From positions 1 through 64,000 of the forward strand of contig NZ_MDWE01000003.1 of assembly GCF_001715195.1 (NCBI RefSeq): 64,000 bases of DNA, read 5' to 3'. Shown one piece after another: positions 5,017 through 58,020 of this stretch (position 1 is its first letter; each line of letters starts with the position of its first letter). The notes below the pieces were generated by a model that was not told the DNA's origin, did not search any database, and worked only from the letters and a program-made list of their open reading frames with translations. A program made the translations under genes and the position numbers. This DNA is from Rhodohalobacter halophilus (GTDB lineage: Bacteria > Bacteroidota > Rhodothermia > Balneolales > Balneolaceae).

Positions 5017-6435
5017 ATGGAGTCCATTTCAGTATTGGACATGTTTAAAATTGGGATCGGTCCGAGCAGTTCACACACCTTAGGTCCGTGGAAAGCCGCA
5101 ACCCGCTTTATTGATGTGATTGGAGATCGCGCGGATCAGATTGAGCATCTTGAGGTACAGCTTTTTGGATCGCTGGCTAAAACCGGCCAGGGACACGGAA
5201 CGGATATCGCTCTGCTATTAGGTTTGAGCGGTAAGGATCCTGTAAATTTTGAAGTTGATCAAATCGATCCGACAGTTGCAAAAATCAAACAAGAAAAGAG
5301 GCTCAGTTTTGGCGGAAAGGTCTGGATCGATTTCAACCCGGAAAACCACATCCATTTTCTGAAGGATGAGATTAAACCGTATCATCCCAACGCACTTACA
5401 TTTATTGCCAGGTTCAGCGATACCACACTCGAAAAAGAGACCTATTACTCAGTCGGGGGCGGTTTCGTGGTTCAGGAAGGGGAAGAGGACCGATCTGAAA
5501 CTGATGATATCCCACTTCCATATCCCATCAATTCAGCGGCCGATTTACAAACAGCCTGTAAAGAGACCGGTCTGCCGATTTCAGGTGTAGTAGCTTTAAA
5601 TGAGCAGGAGTGGCGGTCTGAGGAAGAGACAAAAGAAGCGGTACTGAAAATCTGGGAGGTGATGTGTACCTGTATCTATCGCGGATGCCATACCGAGGGA
5701 TATCTGCCCGGAGGACTTCAGGTAATGCGACGAGCTTCGATTTTAAACAAGAGATTGCTAAATCACAAGAACTACAGTGACTATCACGAGTGGCGTGAAG
5801 CTATACGAAACGGCGGGGATGATTTTGCCTACATCCTCGACTGGGTGAGCTGTTTTGCTCTGGCTGTTAATGAGGAGAACGCATCCTTCAGCCGTGTGGT
5901 GACGGCACCAACCAACGGGGCGGCAGGTGTGATTCCTGCTGTGCTTCAGTACCTGGTGACGTTTAAGCGTGATCACTGTAAAGACATGGTTAGCAAGTTC
6001 TTGATGACTGCCTCTGAGATTGGAAGTATTTTTAAAAAACGGGCTACGATTTCGGCAGCGATGGGTGGATGCCAGGCAGAGATCGGTGTATCATCCGCAA
6101 TGGCGGCTGCAGGTTTAACGGAAGCTCTTGGCGGATCCGTAGAGCAGTGCCTGATGGCGGCCGAAATTGCCATGGAGCATCATCTGGGAATGACGTGCGA
6201 CCCGATTGGCGGGCTGGTTCAGGTTCCTTGTATCGAGCGAAATACAATGGGGGCGATTAAGGCGATTACGGCTTCTCAGCTTGCCCTGCACAGTGATCCC
6301 GACAAAGCCCGGGTTCCGCTGGATGCAGTGGTAAAGACCATGTGGGAGACGGCGCAGGATATGAATTCCAAATATAAAGAGACCTCCGATGGTGGCCTGG
6401 CAGTGAATATTCCGATTAGCCTGAGTGAATGCTAA
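5017..6435 (+). CDS. sdaA: L-serine ammonia-lyase, iron-sulfur dependent (single chain)
   Basis: It deaminates L-serine to pyruvate and ammonia. The 472-residue length fits the fused single-chain form: beta domain at the N-terminus (opening [17 protein letters not shown], where the SSSHT loop is diagnostic) and alpha domain from about residue 185. Cysteines that could bind the [4Fe-4S] cluster are visible in [10 protein letters not shown] and in [28 protein letters not shown] is the conserved alpha-domain motif. It stands alone, and no ribosome-binding site is obvious. Confidence 0.95.
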
Positions 6436-6867: not shown

Positions 6868-8079
6868 ATGAATCCATCCATTAAAAAATTAGCACGAATT
6901 GCGGAGAAGAAAACCCGAACGGTTATCGGGCTGATGTCGGGTACATCGCTGGACGGTCTGGATATTGCACTCTGCGAAATTGAGGGTAGCGGTCCTGAAA
7001 CAGAAGTGAGTTTGCTGAATTTTATTACCAAACCCTATCAAAAAAAAGATAGAGAGAAGCTTCGAAAGGTTACATCAGTAGAGCAGATTTCTTTAAAAGA
7101 TCTCTGTTATATACATACCTGGCTGGGGCAATTGCATGCCGATATGATAGTCGAGGCCCTTTTTGAGTGGGATATTAAACCGGAAAAGGTGGACTGTATC
7201 GGGAGTCACGGGCAGACCATTTACCACCTTCCAAATCGTGACCTGAATGGAGATGAGACACCGCTAAACTCCACGCTTCAAATCGGGGATGGAGATCACA
7301 TAGCCGTAAATACCGGGATTCTGACTATCAGCGATTTTCGTCAGAAACATACCGCTTTTGGCGGCGAGGGTGCCCCAATGGCTCCGCTTGTGGATGAGTG
7401 GCTTTTTCGTGATAAAAATGAGCATCGAGTTCTTCTCAATATCGGTGGAATTGCAAATTATACGTTTATGCCGGCAAGGGAAGCTAAGGAGATGAAAAAG
7501 TTTTCAACCGATACAGGGCCGGGTAATACACTGATTGACGCCGTTGTGAAATCGAAGTTTGATAAACCGTTCGACAGAGGCGGTAAAATTGCAGCTTCCG
7601 GGAATGTGATCAAACCGCTGCTGAACAAGATGCTGGAGGATTCCTGGTTTCAAAGCGACGAGGAGAAGTCGACAGGTCCGGAATATTTTAATTTGAACTG
7701 GATCAAGGAAAAAGAAAATCAGGCCGGATTTTCAGGATCCGATATTTCCGATAAAGATATGGTGGCTACGGTTACGGAACTGACGGCCAGGACGGTCGCT
7801 CAGAATCTTCAAAATCACATCCCGGCAAATCTGCCTGTTGTGATCTATCCCAGCGGAGGTGGTGCACATAACGGTTTTTTGATGGAGAGAATATCGCACT
7901 ATTTAGATCAAGCGGAACTTCGTGAATTTTCAGAGCTGGGTATTTCACCCGATGCTAAGGAGGCTGTTATTTTTGCGGTGCTGGCTAATGAGACGGTGGG
8001 AGGCTATGGGTTTAATTTCAGTACGAAATACGGGTCAGATCAAAATATTCACTTTGGGAAGATTTCATTTCCGGTGTAG
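6868..8079 (+). CDS. anmK: Anhydro-N-acetylmuramic acid kinase
   Basis: It phosphorylates and opens 1,6-anhydro-MurNAc to MurNAc-6-phosphate in peptidoglycan recycling. The ATP-binding signature VIGLMSGTSLDGLDIAL is at residues 20-36. IGSHGQTIYH, ISDFRQKHTAFGGEGAP, LNIGGIANYTF and DTGPGNTLIDA are all family motifs in the expected order. The length (403 aa) is slightly above the usual 370-390. No other recycling gene is adjacent. Confidence 0.96.
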   Translation: MNPSIKKLARIAEKKTRTVIGLMSGTSLDGLDIALCEIEGSGPETEVSLLNFITKPYQKKDREKLRKVTSVEQISLKDLCYIHTWLGQLHADMIVEALFEWDIKPEKVDCIGSHGQTIYHLPNRDLNGDETPLNSTLQIGDGDHIAVNTGILTISDFRQKHTAFGGEGAPMAPLVDEWLFRDKNEHRVLLNIGGIANYTFMPAREAKEMKKFSTDTGPGNTLIDAVVKSKFDKPFDRGGKIAASGNVIKPLLNKMLEDSWFQSDEEKSTGPEYFNLNWIKEKENQAGFSGSDISDKDMVATVTELTARTVAQNLQNHIPANLPVVIYPSGGGAHNGFLMERISHYLDQAELREFSELGISPDAKEAVIFAVLANETVGGYGFNFSTKYGSDQNIHFGKISFPV

Positions 8080-8095
8080 GCTTTGAGTTAAATTC

Positions 8096-8995
8096 TTAAC
8101 TCACCCGCGTCAGCAAATCCCCCAACGCCTCAATCAACTCATTCCGGATTGGCATCGATCGTTCAAAGATCTCAGTCTGCTTGTTCAGATACATCTTTCT
8201 CCCCTCTTCTGTCTCAATTTTAATCGGCTCCAGGTCAAACTCGCGGGCGTCATACGGACTCGCCTGCATATCCACTTTTCTGGTTTCAACAGCGTTAAAG
8301 AACGCTTTGCGAATCAGTTCACTTGATATCCACGGATAGAATTTATAGGCCCACTTGTAGAGATCCATATTGGTGTGAAGACAGCCGGGCTGTTCCATCC
8401 CCTGAAACTTTTCGCGGCTGAGCTCATTCCGGTTCATCGGTTTTGCCTTCTCCGTAAAAAACCGAAAGGCATCAAAGTGTGTGCAGAGCAGCGGGCGGGA
8501 CTCTACAAATTCCGCTATTTCATCATCGGAGAGCCGAAATGGAATCTGTTCATGGCGAACTTCACCGGCGCGATAGACCATCGCCCACTCGTGCATGCCA
8601 AAACAGCCGAAGAGCGGTTTTTTACCCGCACTCTTTTTCAACAGGTTGAGCGTCCATCGAAGAGACTTGATTCTTTTTTTTGGAAAATGACCGGGGTCGA
8701 GATATGCAAATTGATCAGAAATTGTCAACTCAGATACTTCCGGCAGTTCTGAAGTCTCACTGAATTCAAGTGAAACCCCGATTCCGGGTGTCCATCTTCT
8801 TAAATGGGAAGGGCGAAACGCATAATACTCAAAGAGGAAATCGAGTACAGGATCTTTCTGCTGCATCGATCGTTTTTTAAGATATGGATCAAGCAGCACA
8901 GCCAGCTCAGCTTCATGAGATTCCATAAGGCTTTTCCAGGAGCACTCTTCGAGCAGTTCATTTTTCACTTCTATTTTGTCCACATAAATTTCCAT
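8096..8995 (-). CDS. Uncharacterised protein, often labelled 3-methyladenine DNA glycosylase
   Basis: This 299-residue soluble protein contains the segment LFEYYAFRPSHLRRWTPGIGV (residues about 49-69). I associate it with a conserved bacterial family commonly given the automatic name 3-methyladenine DNA glycosylase. I see no helix-hairpin-helix or other glycosylase motif, so that name should be treated as unproven. It converges on anmK with a 16-bp gap and diverges from the UbiA-like gene. Confidence 0.6.
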   Translation of the reverse strand: MEIYVDKIEVKNELLEECSWKSLMESHEAELAVLLDPYLKKRSMQQKDPVLDFLFEYYAFRPSHLRRWTPGIGVSLEFSETSELPEVSELTISDQFAYLDPGHFPKKRIKSLRWTLNLLKKSAGKKPLFGCFGMHEWAMVYRAGEVRHEQIPFRLSDDEIAEFVESRPLLCTHFDAFRFFTEKAKPMNRNELSREKFQGMEQPGCLHTNMDLYKWAYKFYPWISSELIRKAFFNAVETRKVDMQASPYDAREFDLEPIKIETEEGRKMYLNKQTEIFERSMPIRNELIEALGDLLTRVS

Positions 8996-13759: not shown

Positions 13760-14395
13760 ATGGACATTGCGGATCTTCGGAAAAGATACACCAGAAACGG
13801 GTTGGATGAGAAAGATTTGCCTTTAAACCCAATTGAGCTATTTAGAATGTGGATAGATGAAGCGTTAGATGCTGAAGTGCCCGAGCCGAACGCTATGGCA
13901 CTGGCAACAGTAACCGAAGCCGGCGCCCCAAACGTGAGAATGGTACTGCTGAAAGGTATAGATGAGCTGAGTGCCAGATTTTTCACAAATTATCAAAGCA
14001 GGAAAGGGCGAGAGCTGGAGTCAACTCCATCCGCCGCATGTACAATCTGGTGGGCCGAACTGGAGCGGCAGATTCGGTTTAGCGGCAGGGTCAAAAAATT
14101 GAGTGTTGCTGAAAGTGAAGAGTATTTCAGGTCGCGACCTCGTGAGAGTCGAATCGGTGCGTGGGCATCAGAACAGAGCCGGCCTGTTGCCAATCGAACT
14201 GAATTGGAGGAACGGTTCATTGAAGTTGAACAAATGTTTGAGGGAAAAGAGATTCCCAAACCTCAACATTGGGGCGGTTACAAAATCATCTTTGAAACAA
14301 TTGAGTTTTGGCAGGGAAGGCCGGGCCGGCTGCACGACCGTATTTTCTACCAACTGAGCTCAGGGAAGTGGAACAGACAACGTTTAGCACCATAA
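13760..14395 (+). CDS. pdxH: Pyridoxamine/pyridoxine 5'-phosphate oxidase
   Basis: It oxidises pyridoxamine or pyridoxine phosphate to pyridoxal phosphate using FMN. The 211 residues match the family length. NAMALATVTEAGAPNVRMVLLKGID, NYQSRKGRELES, ESEEYFRSRPRESRIGAWASEQS and the C-terminal WNRQRLAP are all family hallmarks in the right order. Several PLP enzymes are encoded in this window, but no direct operon link with them is seen. Confidence 0.95.
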   Translation: MDIADLRKRYTRNGLDEKDLPLNPIELFRMWIDEALDAEVPEPNAMALATVTEAGAPNVRMVLLKGIDELSARFFTNYQSRKGRELESTPSAACTIWWAELERQIRFSGRVKKLSVAESEEYFRSRPRESRIGAWASEQSRPVANRTELEERFIEVEQMFEGKEIPKPQHWGGYKIIFETIEFWQGRPGRLHDRIFYQLSSGKWNRQRLAP

Positions 14396-14414
14396 TACAA
14401 ATTCAACCGTAGGG

Positions 14415-15077
14415 ATGGCGAAAAACAAACTTCAGAAATTTGAGGATGTCGATCGATTCTCAAATGTTTTTGAATACACTGATTTTGAAGACGGAACGCC
14501 CAAGCCGAAGGGAACCTGGCACAAGGAGATTTTCAAGAACAACAATCCAATTGTGCTGGAACTGGCGTGCGGCAAAGGAGAGTATACGGTGAACCTGGCT
14601 CGAAAAAATCCGGATAAAAACTACATTGGCATAGACAAAAAAGGGTGGAGATTGTGGAAAGGTGCAAAAAAAGCTTTGGAAGAGCCGCTGCCTAATGTTC
14701 ATTTCATGAGAATTTATATCGATCATCTGGCAGATTATTTTGAGAAAGGTGAAGTGGATGAGATTTGGATTACATTCCCCGATCCATACCTTAGAGATTC
14801 AAAATCTTCGAAAAGACTGACATCACCAAAATTTTTGGATATCTATCGCAAGGTTGCGAAACCCGGAACGATTATTCATCTCAAAACCGATTCAGTCCCT
14901 CTTTTCCGCTTTACGCTCGAAACAATTGAAGCGGAAGGGTGTGAAATCGTTGATCGGGTAGATAATGTATATGCAGAACGCCCCGAAGATCCCGTTTTGT
15001 CAATCAAAACGTTTTATGAAAAAATGCACCTCGAAGAGAACAAGACGATCCAGTATGTTGCTTTTAAGCTAAAGTGA
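14415..15077 (+). CDS. trmB: tRNA (guanine-N7)-methyltransferase
   Basis: It methylates G46 of tRNA. This 220-residue class I methyltransferase has SAM motif LELACGKGEYTVNLA at residues about 49-63, NYIGIDKKGWRLWKGAKKA after it, and the TrmB-specific FPDPYLRDSKSSKRLTSPKFLDIY. It starts 19 bp after pdxH and may be in the same transcript. Confidence 0.92.
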   Translation: MAKNKLQKFEDVDRFSNVFEYTDFEDGTPKPKGTWHKEIFKNNNPIVLELACGKGEYTVNLARKNPDKNYIGIDKKGWRLWKGAKKALEEPLPNVHFMRIYIDHLADYFEKGEVDEIWITFPDPYLRDSKSSKRLTSPKFLDIYRKVAKPGTIIHLKTDSVPLFRFTLETIEAEGCEIVDRVDNVYAERPEDPVLSIKTFYEKMHLEENKTIQYVAFKLK

Positions 15078-49969: not shown

Positions 49970-50042
<73 letters not shown>

Positions 50043-50047
50043 CTACT

Positions 50048-50096
50048 TAAAAGGGTTTAAGGCTTGTGAAAACAATGCTTTAAGCCCTTTTTTATT
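50048..50096 (+). terminator. Element-borne terminator after tRNA-fMet
   Basis: The arms AAGGGTTTAAGGC and GCTTTAAGCCCTT pair with G-T wobble and are followed by a T-run. The element thus replaces the terminator displaced to attR. Confidence 0.75.
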
Positions 50097-50102
50097 TTGC
50101 CG

Positions 50103-50122
50103 TGGTGAAACTATGGTGAAAC
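50103..50122 (+). promoter_or_regulatory. Paired integrase arm-type sites at attL
   Basis: TGGTGAAAC occurs at 50103-50111 and 50114-50122, 11 bp apart. The same nonamer occurs beside attR. Confidence 0.5.
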
Positions 50123-50160
50123 AAAGTCGCTGTTTTCTCCCTTTTCTCTTCTTTTTTATA

Positions 50161-50205
50161 GTGCCGAAATACTCTTTACATACAGGTTAGAAACGATTCC
50201 GGCAC
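50161..50205. repeat. Inverted repeat GTGCCG/CGGCAC
   Basis: GTGCCG (50161-50166) and CGGCAC (50200-50205) flank a 33-nt AT-rich loop. It marks the outer edge of the structured region near attL. Confidence 0.4.
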
Positions 50206-50233
50206 TCTCAAAATATCAGGTTCAGAATTAAAC

Positions 50234-50366
50234 ACGTATTTCCACGTAAAATACGTTGGTCATCCTATAAGCACCTATAAAATATAGGACGTTATTTAAC
50301 ACAAAATAACGGTAGCCATAAACATCCATAAATTATGGTCGCCTGAATATTACAGGTGTTTTCAGG
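50234..50366. repeat. Array of five tripartite hairpin units
   Basis: There are five consecutive units. Each holds three copies of its own short word, with two copies in one orientation and one inverted. Words and copy starts are: ACGTA at 50234, 50244 and (inverted) 50252; CCTATA at 50264, 50274 and (inverted) 50283; GTTA at 50291 with inverted 50297 and 50307; CCATA at 50316, 50326 and (inverted) 50334; CCTG at 50342 with inverted 50353 and 50363. Units repeat about every 26 bp (25-30). In units 1, 2 and 4 the two direct copies are exactly 10 bp apart and the hairpin loop is AAA, AAA or AAT. The words differ, so this is not a CRISPR or simple tandem repeat. Confidence 0.75.
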
Positions 50367-50430
50367 TTTTAATTGGCTTACCCTCTTTATAAGATTCCAA
50401 ATCTCTGAACTATATCGCAGTATTTTCACT

Positions 50431-50447
50431 GTTTAAAGGCTTTAAAC
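50431..50447. repeat. Palindrome GTTTAAA-GGC-TTTAAAC
   Basis: A perfect 7-bp stem with a 3-nt loop lies in the same non-coding stretch as the hairpin array. Weaker CGTT/AACG and AAGC/GCTT triplets follow up to about 50526. Confidence 0.5.
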
Positions 50448-50562
50448 GCTATTCTCTCATTTAATGAATATCGTTCAAAAAAACGCTTTCGAGATTCGTT
50501 TCTAAGCGCTTCAATTAGGCTAAAGCATACCTTAACATTATTGAAAATTGGGCTTTAACATT

Positions 50563-50919
50563 CTATTCATATGGAAAGTTGAATTTATTACAGAAGTATG
50601 CTTCCAGTATGTTATCGGTTTTGTGCTGATAGGGTTTCAACTCTTCCGGCCAATCGGGTTGCTGGTCGTCTTTGCTTCTTACTACATGCACAATAAAAAC
50701 TGTGATTAACGGTTCAATTCCGTTCAATCTCTCATAAGTACGCTTTAACCGGATATTGTGTAGCCATTTCCGGGCTTCTGCTTCATCCATATCATTCACA
50801 GATGAAAAATCCCATCCATCCCGGCCACACATCACACGTTTTACACCTTGTGAAAGCAATTTTTCATACTGGTGTTTAGTGATTGCTCTGTCGTTATGAA
50901 TTAAATCTGTTATTCGCAT
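50563..50919 (-). CDS. Element hypothetical protein A
   Basis: This 118-residue soluble protein has no motif I recognise. It includes WHTH-free helices in the N-terminal half and RTYERLNGIEPLITVFIVHVV in the middle. Its ATG overlaps the end of the preceding small gene by 10 bp, so it is the last gene of the element's transcript before the hairpin array. Confidence 0.6.
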   Translation of the reverse strand: MRITDLIHNDRAITKHQYEKLLSQGVKRVMCGRDGWDFSSVNDMDEAEARKWLHNIRLKRTYERLNGIEPLITVFIVHVVRSKDDQQPDWPEELKPYQHKTDNILEAYFCNKFNFPYE

Positions 50920-51072: not shown

Positions 51073-51570
51073 TCAATTCTGTGAAAGTTTGAAATTTTTA
51101 AATTGCTCAATGATTGCGTATCCATCGTCTCCGATACGGTCAATTAAGAGAGTTTCCACATAGTCGAGGAACCGTTCAATATCGGAAGCCGGAACTAACC
51201 GCTGTTGTTCAACCTGTATCATCATTGAACGTTGTTTAGCTGTTACTAATCGGTCGATTATCTTACTCAGCGTATCCAAATCTTTTAAATCCGGTATATC
51301 GTTTTTCAATGCTTCCGCTGAAATGATAAGTGCCTGCATCAACCGGATTTCATTCTCCGGGTTAATCAGTTCATCACTTGAAAAGTTTTCCAATTCGGAA
51401 AGTACCTGTTTCAATGATTCACCTGCATATTTTGAATACATCCCGTGTTTAAAATGCGGGGAGTCGGTTCCTTTCGGTGTGGCTCCCCCATGTAACCGGC
51501 AACGGGTTGAACCTTTAGCTGGAGAGCGTTTACATGGAGTTCCTGTTCGGGTTTTGGCGTTACATTTCAT
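51073..51570 (-). CDS. HGG-motif protein (possible small-terminase-like)
   Basis: This 165-residue protein begins with a cysteine-rich module of 32 residues (CNAKTRTGTPC, then RCRLHGG and PHFKHGMYSK). It matches the HGG-x-KHG proteins commonly encoded in prophages, often next to terminase genes. The rest is helical (residues about 50-160). In a satellite-sized element such a protein could redirect packaging, but this is inference from family habit and not from a recognised TerS domain. It overlaps the basic-protein gene by 4 bp. Confidence 0.6.
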   Translation of the reverse strand: MKCNAKTRTGTPCKRSPAKGSTRCRLHGGATPKGTDSPHFKHGMYSKYAGESLKQVLSELENFSSDELINPENEIRLMQALIISAEALKNDIPDLKDLDTLSKIIDRLVTAKQRSMMIQVEQQRLVPASDIERFLDYVETLLIDRIGDDGYAIIEQFKNFKLSQN

Positions 51571-51755
51571 GGGGTTTTTGGTTTTGATTGTTTGTTTATG
51601 GGGTTATCGTTTTTATCCTGCTTTTGTTTCTGCTTATGCGGGTCAAACTCTTTACTCCAATGGTCGGGAGCGTTTACCTTTTCAATGCGTTTACGCTTTC
51701 GCTTCTTTTTTCGTGTGGGTTGGTAAAGTGCTTTCGCTATATCGTGGCCGTTCAT
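51567..51755 (-). CDS. Small basic protein
   Basis: This 62-residue protein is Lys/Arg/Gln rich (TRKKKRKRKRIEK, PHKQKQKQDKND). It is linked by 4-bp overlaps to the genes on both sides, which supports a real gene. It may bind nucleic acid. No family is recognised. Confidence 0.55.
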   Translation of the reverse strand: MNGHDIAKALYQPTRKKKRKRKRIEKVNAPDHWSKEFDPHKQKQKQDKNDNPINKQSKPKTP

Positions 51756-52951
51756 GGTTCTGTGATTAGTTCAGGTTCAAAGGTTTCATCTATCTGTTTT
51801 AAAATCGGGTCGGCATCCATAGCCCGGTAATATTCGGCTTCTGCATATTCAGCCGTTCCCGGTTCCGGCGCTTCGATTTCATCCCATGAAGCCGGATACC
51901 CCCGATTATCGAATATCTCCCCCGTATATGGGTTGAAGCCGTTAGGCGCTGAATTTTGGCTCTCATATTTGCCGTTTCCGGCGCTATCTCTCCGGGGTGC
52001 ATAGTTTACCCTTTCTGAATTTCGGCTAATTGAATCCTGGGTTCGGGGAGTCTTTGTTCCGGTATCAAAACCGCTGTTTATAGTCGCCCGTACTTCATGG
52101 GATTTCAATCCTATGGAGAGTGCCGTTTGTTCGAGTGCCTGTTTTACTTCGTACTCTTTCAACATACCCCCGGCAACCAATCCGGCTAAACTTGCCGTGG
52201 CTTTAAACAGGGTATTATTGCGTTCACCTTTTGGAGCGCTTGCCAGCTCTTCAATTTCATATCTGAATGCAGATTCAGCATACCGGGAATAATCATTCGA
52301 GAGCTGAACCGGTGGCCGGGGTTGAACCGTGTTTACCTTTTCCGGCGGGAGCTTTTTATAAACCGTGAATGAATCTTTGATAATAGCGCCGGGGTCGTAA
52401 CTATAAAAGCGTGCATCATTCGGATTTTTTCCTTTGGAGCTATCCAGCGTTATACCAAACGCTTTAAAATCGGCCTGTAACGCTTCAAAATGTTCGGCCT
52501 GTCGCTTGGGTTGGCTAACCTTAACTAAAGCCCATACGCCCCGCCCGCCGGTACTCAATCCACTGAATGCAACGTTCTTTATCTTTGCCACTTCATCCCG
52601 GAGATGTTCGGCATCGGTTAAATGTGGGTTATCCTTTGCATCTATATCTAAAGCAATCCAGCCGGTGCGGGTTACTACATTCTCCAGCTTCCGGGCATCT
52701 TTGCAAACAGCGCCAACGGTGGCAAGCGGGAGAGATGTTTTTAACTGATCTTTGCCGTTATTCTCCAGCTCTTTTTTTGCTTCATCCAGCGAATACCCCT
52801 TATCAATCAAATCATTTAAACAGCGCCGGTATTGGAGAACCTGTTCAGCATATCGGGAACCCTCTTTACATACTTTCAGCCATTGCCCCAAAGTGATTGT
52901 TTTGGGTTCAGATTGAAAGTTTTTGAATACGCTTATTTTATCTGTCAGCAT
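51752..52951 (-). CDS. BT4734/VirE_N-type primase-like protein
   Basis: This 399-residue protein has the VirE_N/BT4734 domain in its first 200 residues. It includes GWIALDIDAKDNP (acidic pair), FSGLSTGGRGVWALVKV and DSSKGKNPNDARFYSYDP, which correspond to the DxD, sxH-like and acidic motifs of primase-polymerase proteins. A helical C-terminal region follows (ERNNTLFKATASLAGLVAGGM, a PriCT-like segment). It pairs with the DUF3987 gene, a standard replication couple in Bacteroidota elements. A GGGGG stretch sits 9 nt before the ATG. Confidence 0.8.
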   Translation of the reverse strand: MLTDKISVFKNFQSEPKTITLGQWLKVCKEGSRYAEQVLQYRRCLNDLIDKGYSLDEAKKELENNGKDQLKTSLPLATVGAVCKDARKLENVVTRTGWIALDIDAKDNPHLTDAEHLRDEVAKIKNVAFSGLSTGGRGVWALVKVSQPKRQAEHFEALQADFKAFGITLDSSKGKNPNDARFYSYDPGAIIKDSFTVYKKLPPEKVNTVQPRPPVQLSNDYSRYAESAFRYEIEELASAPKGERNNTLFKATASLAGLVAGGMLKEYEVKQALEQTALSIGLKSHEVRATINSGFDTGTKTPRTQDSISRNSERVNYAPRRDSAGNGKYESQNSAPNGFNPYTGEIFDNRGYPASWDEIEAPEPGTAEYAEAEYYRAMDADPILKQIDETFEPELITEP

Positions 52952-52964
52952 AAGGGAACCCCCT

Positions 52965-53037
52965 GCTTAATTAGCTTAATTAGCTTAATTAGTTCGATAT
53001 TTGGGTACTTACTAAGCATACTAAGCAAACTAAGCGC
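52965..53037. repeat. Inverted 3+3 iteron set between the replication genes
   Basis: Three perfect tandem copies of GCTTAATTA occupy 52965-52991. After a 19-bp spacer, three 9-bp copies ACTAAGCAT, ACTAAGCAA and ACTAAGCGC occupy 53011-53037. On the other strand these read GCTTAGT, related to the first set in opposite orientation. The last copy overlaps the DUF3987 stop. An iteron origin or operator is likely. Confidence 0.75.
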
Positions 53038-54433
53038 CCCCCTTGTATCTGTATTCCCGTATCGGTCGCCCGCCGGTTGGCGTTTCAATCGCTTCGATAT
53101 AACCGGCTTCCATCTCATTATCGAGCGCCCTATCCAGTTGCTCTTTATCCATGTGAGAATGATTCATTAAATCGGTTCGGTTCATAGCTCCCCCGTTCTT
53201 TTTAAGAATCTCCCGTACCCTTAACCGGTCGGCATAGTACCGGTTGAATATGTAGTTTTTCTCCAGCATGTAAATGATATGGTTGAACAGCCATTCACAG
53301 AGAGAGATTGAAGCCTGCATATTCCCGGCGCTTATCGGCCGGTCGGGTTGGTCGAGAGATTGAAAGATCAGAGCAAACTTTAGCCCGTAAATATTCAACC
53401 GGGAAACATACCCGCCAATATCATTTATCTGATTTTCGAGCTGTAAGGCTCTATCATTTAAACGGTGGCTCCATTGTGTGAATATCTGCTCTGCATCCCC
53501 GGAGAGCTGAACCGGCGCTGTATGTAAGCGTGCAACGGCTTCCATCTCCCGGTTTAATTCATTGTAAAGCTCTGCATTAGGCCGGGGTAATTCCGTTACC
53601 GCCTTAAATGGTTTGGTACGCTCTTCAATGGTTACTGGGAGTATCCTTTGCAAAAGCCCGCTCCCCCGTTCGGTTGCTGTCAGGCTTCTTTGAAATGCTG
53701 TAATGGTTGTGGCTCCGGCCAAACACCAAACAGGGTTATTCAGCTCAATATCTCCGGCTGATTTTGTATTACGCCGAACGGAATCTTCTGCATCAAATAA
53801 CTGGAGCGCTAAATCCTGGAGAGAGTTCCGGGAGCGTGTTAATTCCTGCCATAACGCTGTAAACTCCCCGGTAACGGAGATAAGGTTTCCGTTATCCCTT
53901 AACATCTCCCAAAAGGTTAAATCTGAAAAGCCATCAGAACAGTATAGCGTTTTCTTTTTGGGTTCGGGTTGGTCGAATATCTCCCCGTTCTCTTTGGCGT
54001 TCTGTTTATCCTGCCTGTATTGTTCGAGCTTCGATTCATACGATAACTTCCAGTTCTCAATAACCGATTGAAACGGCTTCTTAGCCATGTTCAGGCCGGT
54101 GGATTTTCTTAGAGTAGATGAACCCGCAAAAATCACAGTCCAAACAACCGGGTATATGGTTATTCCGCCCATTTCAATGAAACGCTTTTTACCGATTAAC
54201 GCCCCGGCCATTGCTAAAAATGGAGTCAGTAAAAATTCATCCGGTACATCAGAAAGGGGAGAACTGTAATTCAGATAGTTTTTAACCGTTGGCGGGAGCT
54301 GTTCAAATAGTTCATTTGGGAGCGTTAAATCTTCCGGGGTAATCGTAAGCCCCAGCGCTTTGCTCTGTTCAACCGTTGGCCGGTGGTTAAGTTCATTCAA
54401 ATCTATATTTTCGGGAATGTTCAAATCATTCAT
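53030..54433 (-). CDS. DUF3987-type helicase/replication protein
   Basis: About 467 residues starting at the ATG at 54433 (MNDLNIPENIDL); an ATG five codons upstream is also open. A RecA/AAA-like core carries the Walker A variant GSSTLRKST (about residue 105), a Walker B-like strand LISVTGEFTALW and a later sensor region (VWCLAGATTITAF). A winged-helix C-terminus (MNRTDLMNHSHMDKEQLDRALDNEMEAGYIE) ends the protein. It likely acts as the replicative helicase partner of the primase-like gene 3' of it. Confidence 0.82.
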   Translation of the reverse strand: MNDLNIPENIDLNELNHRPTVEQSKALGLTITPEDLTLPNELFEQLPPTVKNYLNYSSPLSDVPDEFLLTPFLAMAGALIGKKRFIEMGGITIYPVVWTVIFAGSSTLRKSTGLNMAKKPFQSVIENWKLSYESKLEQYRQDKQNAKENGEIFDQPEPKKKTLYCSDGFSDLTFWEMLRDNGNLISVTGEFTALWQELTRSRNSLQDLALQLFDAEDSVRRNTKSAGDIELNNPVWCLAGATTITAFQRSLTATERGSGLLQRILPVTIEERTKPFKAVTELPRPNAELYNELNREMEAVARLHTAPVQLSGDAEQIFTQWSHRLNDRALQLENQINDIGGYVSRLNIYGLKFALIFQSLDQPDRPISAGNMQASISLCEWLFNHIIYMLEKNYIFNRYYADRLRVREILKKNGGAMNRTDLMNHSHMDKEQLDRALDNEMEAGYIEAIETPTGGRPIREYRYKGGA

Positions 54434-54647
54434 ACTGAACCCCCTCAAATTTTGATTCTAAAGCACTGCAAACTCTTAGATACGTACTGTATCCACTAAT
54501 GAGAGTTCGTTCCAGTTCGGCTAATCTCCGGCGCTGTCGGTTGTATTGGAAAGCCCTTTTCACTAAATTGGAATTGCCGGTTCGCCGGTTACCAATTAAA
54601 CGGGTCGTACCTTTCGCCGGGTACGGCTCTTTTTTTTGCTCTCTCAT
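54426..54647 (-). CDS. Small Arg-rich protein
   Basis: This 73-residue basic protein (RAFQYNRQRRRLAELERTL) overlaps the DUF3987 start by 8 bp and the HTH gene end by 4 bp. The coupling suggests it is expressed. No family is recognised. Confidence 0.55.
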   Translation of the reverse strand: MREQKKEPYPAKGTTRLIGNRRTGNSNLVKRAFQYNRQRRRLAELERTLISGYSTYLRVCSALESKFEGVQYE

Positions 54648-54937
54648 TTTTCGCCCCCGTTGCTGTTTACTTTGCCCCGGTTCAGGTAGGCTTCCACTTC
54701 ATCAATATCGTAACGGATAACCCGGCCATTCTGCCGGTATGGTAGGCGCCCGGAATCCCGGAGATGTTGAACGTGTCGGCGTGAACACTGGAGAATGTCC
54801 ATCACGTCATCAGTGGTTAGCCATTTTTTACGGGTGGCTTTTCGGATGGCGCCGGGGAGTGAGTCGTTTACCGTTTCTTTCACGGCATCCCGGATAATTT
54901 CTTTTAGATCTTCTTTGGTGGGTATGTATGCGTGCAT
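54644..54937 (-). CDS. Excisionase-like helix-turn-helix protein
   Basis: The C-terminal half (residues about 37-88) is a MerR/HTH_17-type domain: WLTTDDVMDILQCSRRHVQHLRDSGRLPYRQNGR and VIRYDIDEVEAYL. These are typical of excisionases and AlpA-like regulators. The N-terminal 35 residues are helical. It probably controls integrase direction or the replication genes that follow. It is the first gene of the replication segment. Confidence 0.8.
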   Translation of the reverse strand: MHAYIPTKEDLKEIIRDAVKETVNDSLPGAIRKATRKKWLTTDDVMDILQCSRRHVQHLRDSGRLPYRQNGRVIRYDIDEVEAYLNRGKVNSNGGEK

Positions 54938-55036
54938 TTCATCAGTGATTAATTAATGTTCACTGATAATTTGCATTCACTTAAAAAAGGAACTCAATAC
55001 CCCGTATAACTGGAATTTAAACCGGAATAACTGGAA

Positions 55037-56227
55037 TTAGTGTTCTGTTTGCGCTTGGTCGGTGGGCTTGTATTCGTTCCAGTAAAATTTTACCCATCCA
55101 TCTATCGTTTTTAAATCGGTTTTACTGAATGAATCGGCTTGCTCCTGTACCTCTTTTGAAATGGTTCTAACCTTTCTATTTATAGAAACAATTTCTTCAT
55201 CAAAAATGAACTTCCGAACTATGCTTAAAGCCTTAGAAATAATTTCAGGTTCATATTTTCCGGCTTTATTCTCTTCTCTATTACAGAATTTTTCGGCTAC
55301 GCTTTCAGGTTCAGGGAGTTGCTTAAACCGTTCATCCAATTCAAACTGGATTTTAGATTTAATTCTATCACTTAAAAAAGCATCTTCCAAAATACTTTCT
55401 AACGGGTTGATTTTATGAGCTAATTGTACCGCCATATCTATTATCGGGTCTTTCTTTTTGGAAAGGGTTAAAACCCCGTGAATAGTGGCATCAATCAGAT
55501 GTTCAGATAAATATTTATTCTCTTTGAGCTTTTTCAGCATTGAATGGCGTTCAATCAATTCTGTTTTTGCTCCGCTTAATATTAGAGCATCGAACAGGTT
55601 TCTGATATTTCTTAAAACGTTGCTTCGGTCTATTACTCTCTGCTCAATCTCTTCATCTGAATATTCATCTGCATTTCCTTTCAGAATGGCCTGTTCCGAT
55701 TCGTAATAAAACACTTTCAGAACATTGGCTATTTTCTGATTCCATTCATTTAGCTGTTCAGCTTGTCTATGGAGCTGTTTTAAAAGTGTATCTCTGTAAT
55801 TAGAAATAACGGGTAACTTCTCCGGGGGAATGGTTCCGTTTTCACTAATCCCGAATGTTTCCAGCGCTTGTTTATATTCGTCTCCCTTAAATCCGTATCT
55901 GTTAATCTGAATATTTATAAATCTAAACCGGGGAGTTAAATATCCCGTTGGTTCAGATTGTGGAATGTCTTTAATTACAGGTTCTATACCGTGTTTCTTT
56001 GAGCCGGGGAATTGAACCTTTTCAGTTTTCCCGGTTGGTCTATGTGAACTTTTATAATGAATCGGCTCCGGTATGTCAAAGTACCCTTTCCAGTTGAACC
56101 CTGGTTTCATTTTACTGTCATTGGATTTATTCCAATGGTAATAAATACCGCCATTCGCAGAAGTATAGGAATACTTACCCCCTAATTGAGCGCCTAAACT
56201 TTCATTTATTTCTTTCCAATTATCCAT
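55037..56227 (-). CDS. Unknown 396-aa protein next to the integrase
   Basis: The start codon is 1 bp after the integrase stop, so it is co-transcribed with it. The N-terminal 60 residues are Gly/Tyr/Trp rich (GGKYSYTSANGGIYYHWNKSN). The rest is a long run of helices (residues about 115-380) with a Lys/Glu-rich pattern. I see no enzymatic motif, signal peptide or membrane segment. Bacterial defence or regulatory cargo is possible, but nothing in the sequence shows it. Confidence 0.65.
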   Translation of the reverse strand: MDNWKEINESLGAQLGGKYSYTSANGGIYYHWNKSNDSKMKPGFNWKGYFDIPEPIHYKSSHRPTGKTEKVQFPGSKKHGIEPVIKDIPQSEPTGYLTPRFRFINIQINRYGFKGDEYKQALETFGISENGTIPPEKLPVISNYRDTLLKQLHRQAEQLNEWNQKIANVLKVFYYESEQAILKGNADEYSDEEIEQRVIDRSNVLRNIRNLFDALILSGAKTELIERHSMLKKLKENKYLSEHLIDATIHGVLTLSKKKDPIIDMAVQLAHKINPLESILEDAFLSDRIKSKIQFELDERFKQLPEPESVAEKFCNREENKAGKYEPEIISKALSIVRKFIFDEEIVSINRKVRTISKEVQEQADSFSKTDLKTIDGWVKFYWNEYKPTDQAQTEH

Positions 56228-56228
56228 A

Positions 56229-57452
56229 TCAAAACACCTTTTTCATTGCTTTATCTGCCAGCTCTTCATTTAGGCTTTTCAGATACGATTGAGTGGTTTC
56301 TATTTTGGAGTGCCGGAGCGTCTGCATTAGTTCATATACATCTAAGCCCCGTTCACTAACTGCATATTGAGCGAATGAATGGCGGGAAACGTGAAAGCTA
56401 ATGTTTTCATCTATCCCGGCCAGTTTTGCAATCAGCTTTAACCCGGTTTCTTTCCCCTCTTCTTTTTTGCCGTTAACCAATACATTATTGGAACTGATAG
56501 CCCGGCGCAATTCTACCGGGTCGCTGTAATCTTTATGGCTATTCAGAAACGGGAATATGTATTCATCAGAAGCGCCGGAGTACCTGTTCAAAATCTCTTT
56601 TTGATAGTCGTTTAATTCAGTACTAAATGGCTTTTCATTCTTATTCATCTGATAGGAGAGTTTCCCGTTTTTCACGTTCTGCCATTGAAGCCCGCAAATA
56701 TCCCCGAACCGTATTCCCCCGCTGTAAAAACTGAACAGGAAAGCGTTCCGAACGTGCCATTCCCATGAACCGGGTTCAAGTTTAAGCGCTTCAATATCCT
56801 GTATCTGCTCAAAGGTTAGCTTTACTTTTTGTTTGGCTCTGCTCCGGGTCGGTACTTCATATTCCTTAAACGGATCGTTTGCCATTAAGTGAGATTTTAA
56901 AGCCCGGTTAATGATTTTCCGTATCGGCTCAAAGTTTTTGTTTATAGTTGAGTCGCTGTTCCCGTACTCTGTTCGTAAATGGTTTTCAAACTTTTCGAGA
57001 TACCCGCCATCAATCTGTTTCAACGGGAGAGAGCGTTCCCCCTCAAACTCTTCAAACTTCTTTAAAACTACTTTCAGCGTTTTGGAAGCATAGTATTTTT
57101 TATTCGCTTCAAGTTCTTTGAGTAGCTGTTCCCCTAACTCAAAAAAATCTGCTTTTTGGGTTGTTTTAATTCTCTCCCGGATTGCCTTAGCCGTTTCATG
57201 GCCGTTTCTACTCAATTCCGTTTGAACCCGCCGGGCTTCATTTACTTTAAGCTCCAGCGTTTCATTCAGGGTTTTATAATTATCGTGGTTCCGCCGTACC
57301 TCTTCCGCTTCCGGGTTCCAGTGTTTCTTTTTAACAGATAGGCCGGTGCTAACATATTTATGTTTCCGGTTGTTAGTGATTCGCAGATAGATAGGGTATT
57401 CGCCGTTCTGCTTTTTTCTGTTCTTTAGAAACAGATGAAATGAAGTCGCCAT
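56229..57452 (-). CDS. Tyrosine recombinase (integrase)
   Basis: This 407-residue enzyme has an N-terminal arm-binding domain (residues 1-90), a core-binding SAM-like domain (about 105-205) and a catalytic domain. The catalytic residues Arg (YSGGIRFGDICGL), His-x2-Arg (HVSRHSFAQ) and Tyr (TTQSYLK) are all present. It sits at the attR end and reads inward, as expected of a tRNA-targeting element. It recombines the 3' end of tRNA-fMet with attP. Confidence 0.95.
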   Translation of the reverse strand: MATSFHLFLKNRKKQNGEYPIYLRITNNRKHKYVSTGLSVKKKHWNPEAEEVRRNHDNYKTLNETLELKVNEARRVQTELSRNGHETAKAIRERIKTTQKADFFELGEQLLKELEANKKYYASKTLKVVLKKFEEFEGERSLPLKQIDGGYLEKFENHLRTEYGNSDSTINKNFEPIRKIINRALKSHLMANDPFKEYEVPTRSRAKQKVKLTFEQIQDIEALKLEPGSWEWHVRNAFLFSFYSGGIRFGDICGLQWQNVKNGKLSYQMNKNEKPFSTELNDYQKEILNRYSGASDEYIFPFLNSHKDYSDPVELRRAISSNNVLVNGKKEEGKETGLKLIAKLAGIDENISFHVSRHSFAQYAVSERGLDVYELMQTLRHSKIETTQSYLKSLNEELADKAMKKVF

Positions 57453-57518
57453 GTTTTCGCCGTTTGGTTACCAATTTTTGTTTTACCGTGTATTCCAATA
57501 TAACGCTATTAATGAAAA

Positions 57519-57538
57519 GGGTAAAACAATGGTGAAAC
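57519..57538 (+). promoter_or_regulatory. Paired integrase arm-type sites at attR
   Basis: TGGTGAAAC at 57530-57538 is preceded 11 bp upstream by a degenerate copy GGGTAAAAC (57519-57527). This has the same spacing as the pair at attL. Confidence 0.45.
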
Positions 57539-57654
57539 ATTTTTTGTATTTGATACTTTTTTGGGAGTATTCAGAAACTTTAAATATACTCTATAAACGG
57601 CGTTTTTGTGTTCGGTGCGCTGTTTTCACGGAATTGAAAAGAACTGAAATTTAG

Positions 57655-57671
57655 TCCTGCCCCCGCCACTA
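57655..57671 (+). other. attR of the integrated element
   Basis: TCCTGCCCCCGCCACTA repeats the tRNA 3' end with one mismatch. The sequence beyond it diverges from the attL flank. Confidence 0.9.
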
Positions 57672-57835: not shown

Positions 57836-58020
57836 CGATACAGAGTTAACATCCTTTTCGTAATAATCAGCCGCAGCCAAACAATGCCCCAGATAGGATA
57901 TCGCAACGTTTTAGAAGTTCTGGGGAGTGTTATAAGGTTCTGATATACAAAGTACAGGGTTGACATCCTATTCGTTGTAATCAAGCACTGCCAACCAATG
58001 CCCCGGACGGGGCAGTACCT
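57836..58020. repeat. Degenerate tandem repeat of about 70-75 bp, two copies
   Basis: Copy A (57836-57905) and copy B (57944-58020) share ordered blocks: ATACA, GTTAACATCCT or GTTGACATCCT, TTCGT, TAATCA, GCAGCCAA or CTGCCAA, and CAATGCCCC. The pattern resembles widely dispersed intergenic repeats. An ORF across it (57715-58158) is best explained as chance. Confidence 0.55.

Follow-up and report, generated by a model that had tools for sequence, protein, structure and literature searches.

A five-unit hairpin array of constant geometry and changing words in a tRNA-fMet integrative element of the Balneolaceae

Iteron origins, CRISPR, integron attC sites and REP elements are, like the locus described here, arrays or hairpins of 20-40 bp, but their copies share one word or motif, whereas each unit of our array has a word of its own; a preliminary description of this DNA had found no match to CRISPR, iterons or attC. 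Two plasmid systems offer a different comparison. RepB′ of RSF1010 primes at ssi hairpins (PMC4434180), and the origin of pRN1 is a stem-loop without sequence conservation that lies downstream of an archaeo-eukaryotic primase (AEP) replication gene and has conserved flanks (PMC4234260). The 64,000-nt stretch of Rhodohalobacter halophilus DNA analysed here (the window) holds five short hairpin units within 133 bases, 50234-50366, each carrying its own word three times in a common layout, and both the coordinates and the words given in the preliminary description proved correct (Table 1). The five-unit array is a genuine, statistically strong and odd feature, and it is a singleton without comparative support for a function.

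The host is a 7.6-kb integrative element at tRNA-fMet in a Balneolaceae genome, its bounds indicated by the 3′ end of the tRNA gene, which recurs at the other end of the element. The element genes listed in Table 1 all lie on the minus strand and read towards the tRNA, and the array is placed between the last of them and the probable integrase arm sites, so that the setting had been described accurately, including the att core and the replication and terminase-like genes. The last gene encodes a 118-aa orphan with one distant relative, in genome G010. The 165-aa protein weakly matches putative terminase small subunits of Bacillus phages over residues 3-81 (tblastn E 3e-3) and is also encoded in L217, L218 and L219, which are tRNA-borne Balneolaceae elements; the occurrence of this terminase-like protein in several tRNA-borne elements suggests that they are phage satellites. 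The BT4734-like family is counted among the AEP families (PMC5862659). A terminator-like hairpin was read from the sequence at about 50045-50095, and just outside attR, at 57839-58007, there are two 55-nt direct repeats, 80% identical and 114 bp apart. Other element ends also carry repeats or hairpins. The attL-proximal ends of L054 (G000:C16) and L224, which adjoin tRNA-Val and tRNA-Leu, have two adjacent conserved hairpins, GGTGGTTTATATCACC and TCAATA...TATTGA. In L061 (G060:C15, about 1600-2050), tandem truncated tRNA-fMet 3′ ends, followed by a terminator-like hairpin, adjoin an apparently intact tRNA-fMet and may have arisen by repeated integration at the att site or by duplication there.

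Table 1. Features of the hairpin array and its host element, in window coordinates. W1/W2/W3 are given in unit orientation, with W3 as its reverse complement; W1 and W3 are the hairpin arms and W2 is the middle copy.
Feature	Coordinates	Strand	Details
tRNA-fMet	49970-50043		
attL core	50029-50045	+	3′ end of tRNA-fMet, TCCTACCCCCGCCACTA; direct repeat with 57655
Probable integrase arm sites	50103-50122	+	TGGTGAAAC, two direct copies
Left flank block	50160-50192	+	AGTGCCGAAATACTCTTTACATACAGGTTAGAA; common to the G075:C4 element, with unrelated integrase
U1	50234-50256	+	ACGTAttccACGTAaaaTACGT; 5-bp word, ACGTA / ACGTA / TACGT; W1/W2/W3 ACGTAT/ACGTAA/ACGTAT
U1 outer stem			8 bp, ACGTATTT/AAATACGT; direct copies at 10-bp offset
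U2	50264-50288	+	CCTATAagcaCCTATAaaaTATAGG; CCTATA in all three copies; bistable between a 6-bp outer stem and a 6-bp inner stem with AAA loop; W1/W2/W3 CCTATA/CCTATA/CCTATA
U3	50290-50311	-	mirrored; outer stem 8 bp, CGTTATTT/AAATAACG; TAAC copies at 10-bp offset; W1/W2/W3 CGTTAT/TGTTAA/CGTTAT
U4	50316-50338	+	CCATAAacatCCATAAaTTATGG; CCATAA in all three copies; bistable between a 6-bp outer stem and a 5-bp inner stem with AAT loop; W1/W2/W3 CCATAA/CCATAA/CCATAA
U5	50342-50366	-	mirrored; outer stem CCTGAA/TTCAGG; CAGG copies at 10-bp offset; W1/W2/W3 CCTGAA/CCTGTA/CCTGAA
Right flank block	50404-50423	+	CTGAACTATATCGCAGTAT; common to the G075:C4 and G. mengyeensis elements
118-aa orphan, last gene before array	50563-50919	-	no known family
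165-aa protein with HGG motif	51073-51570	-	weak resemblance to putative terminase small subunits (Bacillus phages)
BT4734-like protein (archaeo-eukaryotic primase superfamily)	51752-52951	-	Pfam PF08800, BT4734-like_N, E 1.8e-8
Iteron-like direct repeats	52965-53027	.	GCTTAATTA x3, TACTAAGCA x2; between helicase and primase genes
DUF3987 predicted helicase	53030-54448	-	Pfam PF13148, E 8e-30
HTH_17 protein	54644-54937	-	
Tyrosine integrase	56229-57452	-	Arm-DNA-bind_5, SAM_5, catalytic domain
attR core	57655-57671	+	TCCTGCCCCCGCCACTA; one change versus attL core

Each unit consists of a word, 4 nt, the word again, 0-3 nt and the inverted word, and U3 and U5 show the mirrored design (i.e., one word and two inverted copies 10 bp apart). 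Successive units start 30, 26, 26 and 26 bp apart. A scan of 50187-50526 that required a 4-bp word, its repeat 10 bp further along and an inverted copy close by returned exactly five non-overlapping units (at 50234, 50264, 50291, 50316 and 50342), and the same scan at offsets of 6-9 and 11-19 returned at most one unit each. The 10-bp offset had been claimed for units 1, 2 and 4 only; because the mirrored U3 and U5 have it as well, the regularity is stronger than first stated. None of the weaker palindromes that had been described as reaching 50526 forms a triple-word unit. When the units were aligned with MAFFT, U2, U4 and inverted U5 resembled diverged copies. Together, the ~26-bp stem-loop units form a short tandem family that has diverged in sequence and kept one geometry.

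Lone 6-bp stems are frequent, with 125 in the window having loops of 10-14 bases, and the array might on that account be taken for a chance arrangement in AT-rich DNA. However, the proposed shuffle check came out clearly against this: in 252,259 dinucleotide shuffles of 50187-50526, the observed five units at offset 10 were never reached (a unit being counted if it had 6-bp arms, a loop of 9-14 and at least 4/6 matches in the middle copy). The best shuffles at this offset held three units (ten of the 252,259), and the maximum when offsets of 7-13 were allowed was four, seen once. In ~2 Mb of other sequence, 462 of 5,149 6-bp stems with 9-14-base loops (9%) have a middle copy at offset 10, a background rate that makes the five out of five found in the array itself unlikely; the array is also unique within ~2 Mb of related DNA. 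A chance origin is already refuted by the shuffles and receives next to no weight from us. The 13-nt inverted repeat that flanks the array (50187/50493) arises in 29 of 300 shuffles; since about one shuffle in ten has such a repeat, it was rejected as a closing stem and should be dropped as evidence.

Summed over the five units, the hairpin arms (W1-W3) are identical at 30/30 positions and the middle copy (W1-W2) at 26/30, and for both comparisons the true pairing scores best of all 120 unit re-pairings (means 17.2 and 16.2), which indicates that the words covary inside units. All six stem pair columns vary on both sides among units. Because MAFFT alignments of the units shift the arms, these pair counts were made by script with hand-set registers. 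The earlier statement that layout is kept while words are not is thus confirmed statistically, by the re-pairings as well as by the shuffles. This three-way covariation is real, but the units compared are paralogues within a single sequence, and mutation could have produced it.

In the proposed fold check, a 351-nt region folds better than its shuffles as DNA (z -4.4 on the plus strand and -4.1 on the minus strand) and as RNA (z -4.8 and -2.9, respectively), and the three best ssDNA z-scores among 187 sliding 150-nt segments of the element (-4.2, -4.0 and -3.4) belong to the array, which is the strongest ssDNA-folding locus of its element. The ssDNA-fold peaks of relatives lie elsewhere, beside the primase gene in L035 and near 16870 in L124. 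It had further been suggested that each unit can form two exclusive hairpins. As RNA on the unit strand, the outer hairpins of U1-U5 have energies of -4.7, -2.6, -5.2, -2.4 and -4.3 kcal/mol and the inner ones -2.0, -3.7, +0.7, -2.0 and -3.6 kcal/mol, so that a switch fits U2, U4 and perhaps, more weakly, U5, but not U1 or U3, which would hardly leave an 8-bp outer hairpin favoured by about 2-6 kcal/mol. The array has four CAC/GTG triplets, one each in U1, U2, U3 and U5 and none in U4, all inside hairpin loops and not 3′ of a hairpin, a weak signal (~2% by chance) that was noticed after the fact.

Relatives of the integrase are present in 32 of 92 family genomes; the named nearest relatives compared were Gracilimonas mengyeensis DSM 21985 and a Balneolaceae MAG, and the array's own genome was covered in part, sampled by place. 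Geometric scans found no second array with at least three strict units at offset 10 in ~2 Mb of related loci, and relaxing the scan to 4-bp words gave a single cluster of three, next to another integrase (L044/L013), that looks like chance. A covariance model of the array recovered only its source from 129 genomes of the order; because such a single-sequence model could overlook arrays whose words differ, the geometric scans, which cover ~2 Mb only, are the fairer test. No such array was seen at the tRNA ends of the compared integrase-related elements, in relatives that share the primase type (L035, L036, L045 and L124) or in those that share the helicase type (L045, L158 and L160). Apart from the flanks, DNA similarity searches of phages, plasmids and the order returned short or chance matches only. 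The exact unit 2 sequence has no match in IMG/VR, and the flank-motif matches there that were read in sequence context look like chance, with 24 further loci also matching. The preliminary description had named similar architecture in related elements as a test of its reading, and none among the relatives searched has it, so that this test went against it.

The closest relative, an element of G. mengyeensis (L035) whose integrase is 94% identical, is without the array. It is 87% identical over 54392-57671 and 84% identical at the att side, has no homologue of 50150-50397, shares next to it the 29-base block 50398-50426 only, and carries different cargo. Its helicase module is also swapped, with a RepA-like AAA_25 helicase (14005-15003) in place of DUF3987 and the adjoining repeats replaced too. 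Among 395 genomes of the phylum, the left flank pattern is matched only in G000 and G075. The G075 element, which has a BT4734-like protein and an unrelated integrase, shares the left block (50154-50200) as well as the right one, and its interior between the blocks is different, 100 nt long and without a significant fold (z -0.8). The array thus lies in an accessory zone, flanked by two blocks that are common across elements. These blocks, which are non-coding and are also seen at L124 9965-10124, recur in elements whose integrases are unrelated and whose tRNA sites differ.

The array had also been proposed as a packaging or replication signal, and neither a packaging nor a main-origin role is supported, as elements with the same terminase-like protein or the same primase are without it. 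The iteron-like region is more likely than the array to be the main origin, because in L035 (13919-14032), L036 (about 5750-5850) and L157 (about 8000-8130), too, palindromic repeats lie close to where the primase gene starts; in the window and in L035 these are placed between the BT4734-like gene and the helicase gene. Such iteron-like or palindromic repeats are probably replication origins, each element having its own word (GCTTAATTA in the window, GTTCAC in L035, GTTCAA in L036 and GGTGGTTTAA in L157). The array itself was rejected as an iteron origin on its five different words, the constant-word repeats of the element being those at 52965-53027, and this separate region also argues against the array as main origin.

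We tentatively favour, at a probability of roughly 0.35, the reading that the array is an accessory cis-site read by its shape, with stem-loops that serve replication of the element, perhaps by single-strand priming. Mechanistically, each unit would fold into a hairpin during replication of the excised element or on extrusion by supercoiling. A replication protein, with the BT4734-like primase as first candidate, would use this hairpin to initiate on, or load onto, the single strand. Priming might occur at the CAC/GTG triplet in the loop, and the differing words would prevent cross-pairing or recombination between units. We infer that the structure is in use, that it acts as DNA and not as RNA, and which protein reads it. 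For this shape-read site speak the shuffle result, the covariation, the ssDNA-fold peak, the primase and helicase genes of the element, the mixed orientation of the units, weakly the triplets in the loops, the RSF1010 and pRN1 precedents, the close relative, in which array and DUF3987 are both missing and a RepA-like helicase is present, and the flanks common to another primase-bearing element with an unrelated integrase; against it, the relatives with the same primase or helicase type offer no second example, the G075 region between the shared flanks has no significant fold, and the covariation comes from five units of one sequence. As no relative carries such an array, the selection for structure that was first proposed draws its support only from covariation within the array, which template-switch correction could equally yield. 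A bolder version, in which the array is a new shape-read DNA signal with a free-sequence word repeated three times at a 10-bp step, W1 and W2 competing for one partner, words diversified against cross-pairing and a primase or helicase of the element reading the switchable hairpin and not a sequence, appears quite unlikely.

The main rival to the shape-read site, which we consider possible without expecting it, grants the array no function: an ancestral 26-bp quasi-palindrome would have been duplicated with inversions, template switching at the hairpins during replication would have copied arm onto arm and so held the three words of each unit alike, and the units would have drifted apart. Template switching creates and maintains perfect hairpins, multi-base compensatory changes included (PMC8794818). 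It would account for the constant geometry as inherited and for the different words as drift plus local correction, for the absence of the array from relatives, and for the resemblance of U2, U4 and inverted U5 to diverged copies. Alone, however, it leaves unexplained why the 4-nt spacer (i.e., the 10-bp step) is intact in 5/5 units after their words have diverged, and why the outer stem (30/30) is better kept than the middle copy (26/30); template-switch hairpins are not known to form arrays with a fixed 10-bp direct-repeat step. A structured RNA, either the 3′ untranslated end of the minus-strand element operon or a small RNA, that stabilises the transcript or titrates something is unlikely. 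The operon does read towards the array, transcription would cross it before the terminator-like hairpin, and RNA folding is better than in shuffles on both strands, but promoter and terminator signals are no higher than chance, conservation in relatives is lacking, and the orientation of the units is mixed, as would be expected of a DNA site more than of one RNA. Rfam covariance models, strict and lax, brought tRNA alone to threshold and thus gave the array no match; with no CRISPR family above threshold and no constant repeat, CRISPR was rejected. A packaging (pac/cos) or partner-protein site on dsDNA would have its words 10 bp apart on one helix face, about one helical turn, bound by a terminase-like or regulatory protein, and the gene for the 165-aa protein indeed stands shortly upstream of the last gene. 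We hold this to be very doubtful, and rejected packaging, as the words vary from unit to unit, which pac, cos or operator repeats do not, and three elements with 47-56% identical terminase-like proteins have no such array near attL. Integrase arm sites were rejected as well, because the element with the 94% identical integrase lacks the array and copies like the arm sequence TGGTGAAAC are found elsewhere, including in relatives without the array.

If the array is used, it would be a rare case of geometry alone being conserved in mobile-element DNA, with three-way instead of two-way covariation, and BT4734-like primases, which have been little studied, would together with DUF3987 helicases be linked to a cis-site. 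An unused array would instead show cleanly, in nature, how homogenisation by template switching can make structure that looks selected, and would be a caution for claims based on covariation.

Among known systems, template-switch quasi-palindromes share with the array perfect short inverted repeats and multi-base compensatory changes (PMC8794818). The ssi sites of RSF1010 (IncQ) are likewise short ssDNA hairpins of a mobile replicon with a primase of the archaeo-eukaryotic superfamily, and there a GTG start triplet lies near the hairpin (PMC4434180), whereas the CAC/GTG triplets of the array sit in loops. The array forms stable ssDNA hairpins as such sites do (DNA z -4.4 and -4.1 on the two strands), and an AEP primase is encoded in the same replicon (BT4734-like_N, E 1.8e-8). 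RSF1010 differs in having one 40-nt ssi per strand and no five-unit triple-word cluster, and its RepB′ contacts specific 5′ bases, whereas for the array recognition by the primase is what we infer. Similar to the origin of the Sulfolobus plasmid pRN1, the array lies downstream of an AEP replication gene, keeps structure without sequence and has conserved flanks (PMC4234260). The pRN1 structure is one ~100-nt stem-loop conserved across a plasmid family, whereas the array comprises five small hairpins in a single element that also has iteron-like repeats, and the relatives compared do not show the same structure downstream of the replication gene. Finally, the promoters of the N4 virion RNA polymerase resemble the array in being small hairpins with a 3-nt loop that are extruded by supercoiling and whose stem bases are partly free if paired (PMC4496689), and differ from it in that their loops and closing pairs are conserved and they stand before early genes and serve a dedicated polymerase.
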